A DNA stretch of 34,392 nt from assembly GCA_021801905.1 (NCBI GenBank), contig JAKABJ010000006.1:1-34392 (forward strand), written 5' to 3'. Source of the DNA: Microcaldota archaeon (GTDB taxonomy: Archaea > Micrarchaeota > Micrarchaeia > Micrarchaeales > Micrarchaeaceae). This document shows, in pieces, positions 6,966-34,174 of this stretch. The translations under genes were made by a program, and so were the position numbers. How positions within the stretch are numbered: position 1 is the stretch's first letter; each line of letters begins with the position of its first letter. The notes below the pieces were generated by a model. It saw nothing but the letters and a program-made list of their open reading frames with translations, had not been told where the DNA came from and searched no databases.

Positions 6966-7073
6966 CGGATCTGGCGGGATTTTCAAAACTTTTGCATATT
7001 CACAAAAATTTATTTGAACCCGCAACATCCGGGTCCGAAGCCCGGCGCGCTGTCCAAGTTGCGCCACAGATCC
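6966..7073 (-). tRNA. tRNA-Arg(UCG) with an intron in the T loop
   Basis: Read on the minus strand, the mature parts form a complete cloverleaf of 75 nt. The acceptor is GGATCTG/CAGATCC, the D stem GCGC/GCGC, and the anticodon stem CCGGG/CCCGG with loop CTTCGGA (anticodon TCG, reading CGA). A 5-nt variable loop follows, then T stem GCGGG/CCCGC and discriminator G at 6966. The CCA end is not encoded. The T loop TTCAAAT is interrupted by 33 extra bases (6980-7012). No intron is present at the canonical position after the anticodon. A T-rich TATA-like element (ATATATTT) lies about 30 nt upstream on the minus strand. The pairing is perfect in all four stems, so I am confident of the call. Confidence 0.93.
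6980..7012 (-). other. Non-canonical tRNA intron with bulge-helix-bulge
   Basis: The intron lies between T-loop positions 59 and 60 of tRNA-Arg(UCG). Its fold is a textbook bulge-helix-bulge: the T stem is the outer helix, exon TTCA pairs with intron TGAA to give the central 4 bp, and each side has a 3-nt bulge AAT. The inner helix is AAATTTTTG with CAAAAGTTT (one G-T pair) closed by an 8-nt loop. Cutting each bulge after its second base restores a 7-nt T loop TTCAAAT. Such sites need a splicing endonuclease of broad specificity, as known for ultrasmall archaea and some Crenarchaeota. Confidence 0.88.
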
Positions 7074-32277: not shown

Positions 32278-33201
32278 TTAAGGTGCACTATAACTGGATG
32301 TCCATGCGCTTGTGTATGTCACATTTGCAGCTGTACCATCATTTCCATAACCGGAATAGTCATTTGCATTTCCATTAAGAGGCCACCATCCAACAAGATT
32401 GTTGACATTGATAGGAGCCCCTCCTATGCCTTCTTGATAAAGTGCTTGGATCTCTGATTGTGAAAGTGAGGCATTGTAGATTTGGACATTTGCTATTTTT
32501 CCAGAAAAAGGGTAACCTTCAATTGAATACCCAATAAGCGCATTAGATTCTGGAATTTTTGGTATTGGATTATTTGTCAGAAGATAATGAACGCCATTTA
32601 AGTATAATGAAAAATTTCTATCACTACCGTCTGGAGTAGTAACCAATGCAACATAGTTCCATGCATTCATTTTAAATGTAGAATTTGCAAAGCAGTATCC
32701 ACCAATTGATGATGCTAAAACAACAAGATATGCATGTGTAATAGTACTACACCACCCAACATTGGCACCTGATGTAACTATACCATATCCATTACTGTTT
32801 GGATATGGTGGAGCACTGCCTAGATAATAAATTGCTTCGAGCCCAAGGTAAGGGGTTTGAGGCATAAACCAAGCAGACATAGTTGTATTAACTGTTTGTA
32901 CTGTTGGTAGTGCAGTTGATATCTTGCCAGTTCCCCCAAAGTTAGCCACATACTCCGGCAGCATTCCGTTGCATTGGCCTACAAGTGAGGTCTGAGCTGA
33001 GTTCCTTAGCACCTCGCAGGACCCAGGCTGCGCCCTTGGAGCAAAATTTGCGCTGTTGAAGATTCCCAAAGAGAAAAGCGCTACAAGGACAATCGCAATT
33101 ATGAGAATTGCCCATCCGTATGTCATCAGGTACTCCATTGCAGACTGGGATCTGTTTAATAAGGAATTAACGCCGTGCTTTTTTGAAGAGTTCTTTCGCA
33201 T
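32278..33201 (-). CDS. Class III signal-peptide (pilin-like) LamG surface protein, copy B
   Basis: A 307-residue secreted protein. The N-terminal NRSQSAMEYLMTYGWAILI matches the archaeal class III signal peptide: cleavage before Gln, Glu at +5, and a hydrophobic helix that packs pilin-like filaments. A short conserved neck follows (SCEVLRNSAQTSLVGQCNGM, two Cys likely bridged). The remainder is a LamG/concanavalin-like domain ending with the motif LVGWWPLNGNANDYSGYGNDG. Comparison with copy A shows near-identical N- and C-terminal parts and a different central ~190 residues. Such domains bind sugars or proteins, so an adhesin or cell-cell contact filament is plausible. No pilus assembly genes are in the window. 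Confidence 0.85.
   Translation of the reverse strand: MRKNSSKKHGVNSLLNRSQSAMEYLMTYGWAILIIAIVLVALFSLGIFNSANFAPRAQPGSCEVLRNSAQTSLVGQCNGMLPEYVANFGGTGKISTALPTVQTVNTTMSAWFMPQTPYLGLEAIYYLGSAPPYPNSNGYGIVTSGANVGWCSTITHAYLVVLASSIGGYCFANSTFKMNAWNYVALVTTPDGSDRNFSLYLNGVHYLLTNNPIPKIPESNALIGYSIEGYPFSGKIANVQIYNASLSQSEIQALYQEGIGGAPINVNNLVGWWPLNGNANDYSGYGNDGTAANVTYTSAWTSSYSAP
32970..33151 (-). repeat. 182-nt near-identical module, copy 1 of 2
   Basis: This stretch, covering the signal peptide and conserved neck of LamG copy B, matches 33961-34142 with about three mismatches over 182 nt. The central parts of the two genes are far less alike. Such local homogeneity suggests recent duplication or gene conversion. 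Confidence 0.85.
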
Positions 33202-33250
33202 AATTACACTCTATTTTTATTGCAAAGTGAATTATTAATATACTTATTCT

Positions 33251-34174
33251 TCAAGGCGCACTATAACCGGAAGTCCATGCGCTTGTGTATGTGACGTTTG
33301 TAGGCACTCCATTGTTATCATTTCCGCTGTAGTCGTTAGCGTTGCCGTTGAGCGGCCACCATCCCATAAGATTGTTGACATTAATTGGTGCACCGCCTAT
33401 GCCTTCTTTATAGAGTGCCTGTATTGAAGAATTAGAGAGAGATGCGTTGTAGATCTGGACATTTGAAATGTATCCGTTCCAATACTGATCAAATGGTCCT
33501 GACTGTCCTATTGCCAAAGGAGCACTAGCTTGTAGAATAACATTTGCTATTCCAGATGCGATTGTGCCAGTATACAGTTGACCATTCATCCCTATGTCGC
33601 CTATGTTGTTTGAGCCGTCAAACGTTGTTGCATAGAAAACCCATTGCCCTGCGGCTATAGTTGCAGTACCACCCATGCGTTCGTTGCTGCATTGGATTAC
33701 TGTGTAAGCTTCGTTAGGGTTGCTGCCTCTAAGCATTACCTCAAGATCGTTATCTGAAGTACCGCAAGTAGCAACACCCCCATAGTGCACCACATTTAGC
33801 TGTGTTACTCCGACTGGTGAATTGAATGATAGCGCCCAAGCAGTAATCGTAATCTTGCCAAGGCTACCAGGTGATACTTGAGGCATTCCAACAACGTTTG
33901 CTATTGCGACTGCGCTGCTGGCACCGTTAAACTGCGCCACATATTCAGGCAGCATTCCATTGCATTGGCCTACAAGTGAGGTCTGAGCTGAGTTCCTTAG
34001 CACCTCGCAGGATCCCGGCTGCGCCCTTGGAGCAAAATTTGCGCTGTTGAAGATTCCCAAAGAGAAAAGCGCTACAAGGACAATCGCAATTATGAGAATT
34101 GCCCATCCGTATGTCATGAGGTACTCCATTGCAGACTGGGATTTAATTGAACCTGTCTTGTGCATATTAATCAT
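33251..34174 (-). CDS. Class III signal-peptide (pilin-like) LamG surface protein, copy A
   Basis: Like copy B it has 307 residues. The signal is KSQSAMEYLMTYGWAILI, followed by the same neck (SCEVLRNSAQTSLVGQC) and a C-terminal LamG end (MGWWPLNGNANDYSGNDNNG). The middle, with GASSAVAIANVVGMPQVSPG and STATCG-like Cys-bearing loops, is largely different from copy B, although the fold must be the same. It lies 49 nt upstream of copy B. The C-terminal coding sequence is almost the same as the fragment at the left window edge. I infer a surface or filament protein whose exposed part varies. Confidence 0.85.
   Translation of the reverse strand: MINMHKTGSIKSQSAMEYLMTYGWAILIIAIVLVALFSLGIFNSANFAPRAQPGSCEVLRNSAQTSLVGQCNGMLPEYVAQFNGASSAVAIANVVGMPQVSPGSLGKITITAWALSFNSPVGVTQLNVVHYGGVATCGTSDNDLEVMLRGSNPNEAYTVIQCSNERMGGTATIAAGQWVFYATTFDGSNNIGDIGMNGQLYTGTIASGIANVILQASAPLAIGQSGPFDQYWNGYISNVQIYNASLSNSSIQALYKEGIGGAPINVNNLMGWWPLNGNANDYSGNDNNGVPTNVTYTSAWTSGYSAP
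33961..34142 (-). repeat. 182-nt near-identical module, copy 2 of 2
   Basis: The 5' module of LamG copy A, equivalent to 32970-33151 in copy B. The two copies are direct repeats about 990 nt apart. They could recombine to fuse one gene's head to the other's body. Confidence 0.85.

Follow-up and report, generated by a model that had tools for sequence, protein, structure and literature searches.

The textbook archaeal splice junction consists of an outer helix, a 4-bp central helix, a 3-nt bulge, an inner helix with its loop, and a second 3-nt bulge on the opposite strand. Archaeal tRNA introns range from 11 to 129 nt in length, and position 59/60 is among their known non-canonical locations (PMC4090602); the 59/60 introns listed there come from Sugahara et al. 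2008 and 2009 and Chan et al. 2011. Archaeal T-loop and T-arm introns have been described, as has the splicing endonuclease of Candidatus Micrarchaeum acidiphilum ARMAN-2 (PMC12397907, PMC6379350). Precedents for the movement of such introns also exist. In the Thermoproteales, similar introns transpose between tRNAs (Fujishima et al. 2010, as cited in PMC4033280 and PMC4090602), and for Caldiarchaeum a model has been put forward in which tRNA introns are gained via a 1.8-kb mobile element with a recombinase (PMC3293823).

The window, that is, the whole stretch of 34,392 nucleotides analysed here, comes from a Micrarchaeaceae archaeon and harbors a tRNA-Arg(UCG) gene with an insert at the same site, with a bulge-helix-bulge junction and within the same size range as the known 59/60 introns. 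It differs from them in its DPANN host family, the Micrarchaeaceae, and in being, for one isoacceptor, tRNA-Arg(UCG), both labile and family-wide. Both position 59/60 and the epsilon-2 enzyme type are already published. In the openly accessible literature, judged in part by title, we found no account of noncanonical tRNA introns in Micrarchaeota; an earlier mention of this gene elsewhere is possible. We consider it highly probable (roughly 0.94) that this is a working tRNA-Arg(UCG) gene whose 59/60 bulge-helix-bulge intron is cut by an epsilon-2 endonuclease and whose exons are joined by RtcB.

Gene layout and splice junction

The complete gene lies on the minus strand, running from 7073 to 6966, and is split by 33 nt; the extent of the whole 108-nt pre-tRNA (6966..7073) follows from the sequence, the Rfam match and the ARAGORN call after excision. 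The 61-nt 5′ exon (7013..7073) extends from the 5′ strand of the acceptor stem to T-loop position 59, ends in GCGGGTTCAAA, and is identical to the intronless orthologues in G003, G004 and G006. It is followed by the 33-nt intron TAAATTTTTGTGAATATGCAAAAGTTTTGAAAA (6980..7012), delimited by ARAGORN excision and orthologue comparison, and by the 14-nt 3′ exon TCCCGCCAGATCCG (6966..6979), read from the sequence and the orthologue parse, which supplies T-loop position 60, the 3′ strands of the T-stem and acceptor stem, and the discriminator G. The acceptor stem is formed by GGATCTG and CAGATCC, the T-stem by GCGGG and CCCGC, and the anticodon loop CTTCGGA carries the anticodon TCG. The insert sits between TTCAAA and T of the T-loop, i.e. 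at 59/60, and its excision leaves a standard 75-nt tRNA. A split or permuted tRNA is ruled out; the exons stand in their normal order with only the 33-nt insert between them.

ARAGORN misses the gene in the raw window sequence and returns no tRNA from it even with introns of up to 250 nt allowed, while the Rfam tRNA model gives a 59-nt match (30.1 bits) that ends at the T-arm. With the 33 nt excised, ARAGORN calls tRNA-Arg(tcg). The original prediction had named this isoacceptor, placed the intron at 59/60, expected a perfect cloverleaf after removal of 33 bases and warned that tRNA finders could miss or truncate the gene; the identity, the cloverleaf and the warning are all borne out by these calls, and the intron position by the sequence together with the empty site in relatives described below. 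Because common tRNA finders overlook this gene or cut it short, the decoding set of these small-genome archaea may be undercounted.

The junction reads, in order, GCGGG-TTCA-AAT-AAATTTTTG-TGAATATG-CAAAAGTTT-TGAA-AAT-CCCGC, a strict bulge-helix-bulge with a 4-bp central helix, two 3-nt bulges on opposite strands, and the T-stem as its outer helix. The exon strand of the central helix, TTCA (T54–A57; 7015..7018, minus strand, as are all features here), is assigned from the orthologue parse and the T-arm fold, and the intron strand, TGAA (6982..6985), from motif conservation and the same fold. Between them lie the 5′ bulge AAT (7012..7014), supported by the sequence, the cut rule that we infer and the empty site in relatives, and the inner helix (6986..7011), in which folds pair AAATTTTTG with CAAAAGTTT over 9 bp, including one G-U pair, around the 8-nt loop TGAATATG. 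The 3′ bulge AAT (6979..6981) follows from the sequence and orthologue comparison. Predicted cuts after the second base of both bulges (AA^T) restore the T-loop TTCAAAT. All parts of the full motif claimed earlier (TTCA/TGAA, two AAT bulges and an 8-nt loop) are therefore present.

The pre-tRNA fold is better than that of all 200 shuffles (z = −3.15). For the T-arm alone, the minimum-energy fold (−16.0 kcal/mol) leaves the central helix open and lies 1.9 kcal/mol below the full motif (−14.1 kcal/mol); the central-helix pairs have probabilities of 0.64–0.71 in the T-arm fold.

Three other features of the genome were noted. In a tRNA-Leu(CAA) gene (L042, G000:C16:17871-17931 and downstream), 14 nt are inserted in the T-loop, the junction is relaxed, and ARAGORN matches the gene only after excision. 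Read by eye, a tRNA-Leu(UAA) gene (L041, G000:C1:13507-13585) appears to have an intron in the D-loop, with TGGC-GAAA-GCCA as its hairpin and TCTG/CAGA as its central helix. Two similar genes stand in tandem at positions 32278-34174 of the window and show a class III pilin-like signal (SQSAMEYLMTYGWAI) as well as a laminin-G-like domain.

Splicing machinery and additional gene copies

The genome encodes one splicing endonuclease, a single chain of 383 aa of the three-unit epsilon-2 (alphaN-alpha-betaC) type, and an RtcB ligase (E = 5.4e-165). Residues 11–383 of this EndA align to the ARMAN-2 enzyme 4fz2 (E = 1.9e-164). It shares with the ARMAN-2 epsilon-2 endonuclease (4fz2, 9w2k) a near full-length alignment, the catalytic Y/H/K triad and the Tyr-Lys pair of the ARMAN-specific loop, and the window genome's protein is an ordinary orthologue, known here from its sequence. 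The catalytic residues Y232, H247 and K278 and the loop residues Y156 and K157 are conserved in 79 of 79 EndA homologues from both intron-bearing and intronless species; their ARMAN-2 counterparts are Y236, H251, K282, Y160 and K161 (PMC12397907).

With this machinery, the tRNA-Arg(UCG) transcript would contain the 33-nt intron at 59/60, and the intron's TGAA would pair with the conserved T-loop TTCA to form the strict bulge-helix-bulge, the T-stem serving as outer helix. The epsilon-2 endonuclease would then cut both AAT bulges behind the second base, with RtcB joining the exons into the standard 75-nt tRNA. The three-unit endonuclease gene that the original prediction had proposed to look for elsewhere in the genome is found in this 383-aa, ARMAN-2-type EndA. 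As for the accompanying claim of a broad-specificity endonuclease, the window intron by itself needs no such enzyme, because its junction is a strict bulge-helix-bulge. The endonuclease appears permissive, yet it does not explain which species carry the intron, since its residues are kept in intron-bearing and intronless species alike. An explanation of intron presence by endonuclease type was accordingly rejected, because neither the enzyme nor its loop residues differ among the sampled relatives.

It could be argued that the window gene has decayed or been disrupted into a pseudogene and that tRNA-Arg(UCG) is supplied by another copy. The genome was searched by model, by pattern and in chosen stretches, its tRNA set being those genes caught by the Rfam model. 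A second tRNA-Arg(UCG) does occur in the same bin, on contig C10 (6,680 bases; L076, G000:C10:1-6680), and clearly decayed copies of the intron-bearing tRNA-Arg gene are found in the relatives G008 and G047 (L077, L091). The C10 copy, however, also bears an intron, of 42 nt in the T-loop. The first 167 bases of C10 match G040 and G076 at 99%, G040 belonging to genus g10, and its right end, where a second tRNA-Thr lies, matches the ends of contigs from G017 and G058, of the same genus. Because both ends match genus g10, C10 is probably a stray contig mis-binned from another genus. Besides its duplicate tRNA-Arg and tRNA-Thr genes, C10 carries AbiE-like and PIN-domain toxin-antitoxin-like genes.

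An intact tRNA-Arg(UCG) elsewhere in the genome, the case that had been named as grounds against the prediction, was sought and none was found in the assembly; an uninterrupted tRNA-Arg 3′ arm has no match there either (the assembly is 91.5% complete, and a copy in a gap is possible). Viral contigs gave no match to the tRNA-Arg exon pattern. Every stem of the window gene is preserved, with the same sequence as in functional orthologues, and the pseudogene explanation is accordingly very improbable next to that of a working, spliced gene.

The same site in relatives

We searched 148 relatives and parsed their tRNA-Arg(UCG) genes. The exact 75-nt spliced sequence of the window gene occurs uninterrupted in the same-genus genomes G003, G004 and G006, where a gene thus already has the sequence predicted for the splice product. 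The tRNA-Arg(UCG) genes of G001 and G007, also of this genus, are likewise intronless, and introns at the same point are present in the congeners G008 (34 nt), G005 (27 nt) and G002 (38 nt). Across the family, 53 of the 72 genomes examined carry an intron at 59/60 (55 introns, 13–82 nt, median 32 nt). None was found in 13 genomes sampled from the order's other family, one row of which (G117) is the GCG isoacceptor. The supposition that introns outside the anticodon loop are rare holds across archaea, but in Micrarchaeaceae such an intron is the rule at tRNA-Arg(UCG).

The four central pairs are kept in 50 of the 55 introns, against a mean of 1.04 and a maximum of 5 in shuffled introns, and the mean length of the inner helix is 3.3 contiguous bp, where shuffles give 0.64. 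At 13 nt, the intron of G032 is the shortest and consists of little beyond the bulge-helix-bulge motif. The T-loop is TTCAAAT in all 34 intronless rows, and every intron-bearing copy yields TTCAAAT after excision. From these comparisons, selection on the intron's TGAA arm is evident. Similar palindromes do lie outside tRNA genes in relatives, as would suit a recent, unspliced mobile-element scar whose likeness to a bulge-helix-bulge is due to chance. Against such a scar, the site and the splice motif are constant in 53 genomes while the interior varies, and the TGAA arm is under selection; we regard it as extremely improbable, and a spliced intron remains the preferred explanation.

On the EndA tree the intron state changes at least 12 times, at least four of these changes being forced by well-supported branches. 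It is plausible that the intron is old and was lost exactly and repeatedly, because the intron core is common to several genera; gains may also have occurred. Randau and Söll's idea that introns disrupt tRNA attachment sites (as summarised in PMC4090602) suggests a reason for persistence that is compatible with splicing, namely that the intron breaks up the tRNA 3′ half as a virus or plasmid attachment site. The insert does interrupt the part of the tRNA gene usually used by integrases, and its repeated gain or loss on the EndA tree would fit. Intronless relatives, however, show no duplicated att-like 3′ arm, with at most one match per genome, and turnover is also seen in the DNA directly following copies that bear the intron. 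Such a protective role therefore seems unlikely as an addition to the reading of a spliced intron.

A palindromic core shared among introns

Many of the orthologous introns contain a common palindromic core (AAACTT..AAGTTTAATCAA; TAAACTTTTGG..AAAGTTTAATCAAAAG), and TTTAATCA, for instance, is present in 8 introns where 0.06 would be expected. The pattern AACTTN{2,14}GTTTAATCAA has 51 matches in 32 of 85 family genomes, compared with 1 for the reversed control, and is also found elsewhere in the phylum. A looser form of the core pattern has matches in viral contigs, and those listed were taken as chance occurrences in AT-rich DNA.

Flanks read by eye place 20 of 30 family core loci in tRNA introns. 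T-loop core introns are found in Arg(UCG), Ala(GGC), Arg(CCU) and a Ser tRNA, and core introns at 37/38 in Thr(GGU), Thr(UGU), Arg(UCU), Ile(GAU) and Ala(UGC); further core-intron loci are Thr(CGU), Arg(CCU) and Gly(UCC). By alignment, the T-loop intron of a class II, apparently Ser tRNA from the order's other family (L402) almost equals the tRNA-Arg intron of G002. The other 10 core loci lie outside tRNAs and include tandem hairpins after gene ends. At two of these ten (L340, L343), the palindrome falls within pilin-like genes, in frame and close to the N-terminus, immediately ahead of SQSAMEYLMTYG, in ORFs of 313 and 341 aa.

Several individual loci were recorded alongside these. G001, with its intronless tRNA-Arg(UCG), has a core-type T-loop intron in tRNA-Ala(GGC) (L331, G001:C17:6082-6105). 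Tandem palindrome arrays occupy intergenic DNA in genomes of genus g14 (L334, L335, L362, L364), and at L383, L384 and L399 an uninterrupted tRNA gene has the palindrome beginning within a few bases of its 3′ end.

The core comprises three arms, and the first can pair with the second or with the third. Covariation is seen in one column triple, which is C-G-G or T-A-A in 12 of 12 sequences, and both arm pairings exceed all shuffles in paired cells, each resting on a single double-change pair.

The window intron does not have the TTTAATCA part, and neither the strict AACTT..GTTTAATCAA pattern nor the core model with the A:B hairpin (R1) has a match in it. As the R1 model is unmatched, we stop short of assigning the window intron clearly to the element family. 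Its similarity to the introns of G068, G021, G002 and G008 exceeds that of shuffles (z = 3.8–4.7). G008 is the window genome's sister on the EndA tree; its gene is 90% identical and its intron matches at z = 3.8, with 0 of 1000 shuffles reaching that score. Given the missing part, the unmatched model and these similarities, the window intron is probably a shortened descendant of the core and a weak match to it.

The presence of a shared core in different tRNAs and outside tRNA genes suggests intron transposition in Micrarchaeota. As in the Thermoproteales, as far as the cited accounts describe them, near-identical introns occupy different tRNAs and positions in the Micrarchaeota relatives; what differs here is a palindromic core common to T-loop and 37/38 introns and found outside tRNAs as well, to which the window intron is a weak match. 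The Caldiarchaeum model also has introns gained through a mobile element, but that element is 1.8 kb long and carries a recombinase, whereas the Micrarchaeota repeat is about 30 nt long and no enzyme gene was found for it. Tentatively, and with the odds against it, we propose that a dispersed palindromic element some 30 nt long, made up of AAACTTYTT-n-AARAAGTTT-AATCAA and a third arm, could insert into intergenic DNA, in frame into pilin-like genes and into tRNA genes of Micrarchaeota, and that T-loop introns like that of the window could be worn copies of it. Such an element might survive in tRNA genes because the epsilon-2 endonuclease would remove each copy as an intron, and its TGAA arm, fitting the near-universal TTCAAAT T-loop, would make it portable between tRNAs.

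The Micrarchaeaceae tRNA-Arg(UCG) gene offers a clean comparative system, with one tRNA, one site, sister species with and without the intron, and an intact endonuclease in both. The mechanism by which archaeal tRNA introns spread is called unknown in a review (PMC4090602); if the shared core reflects transposition, it would provide a concrete element with which that spread could be tested.
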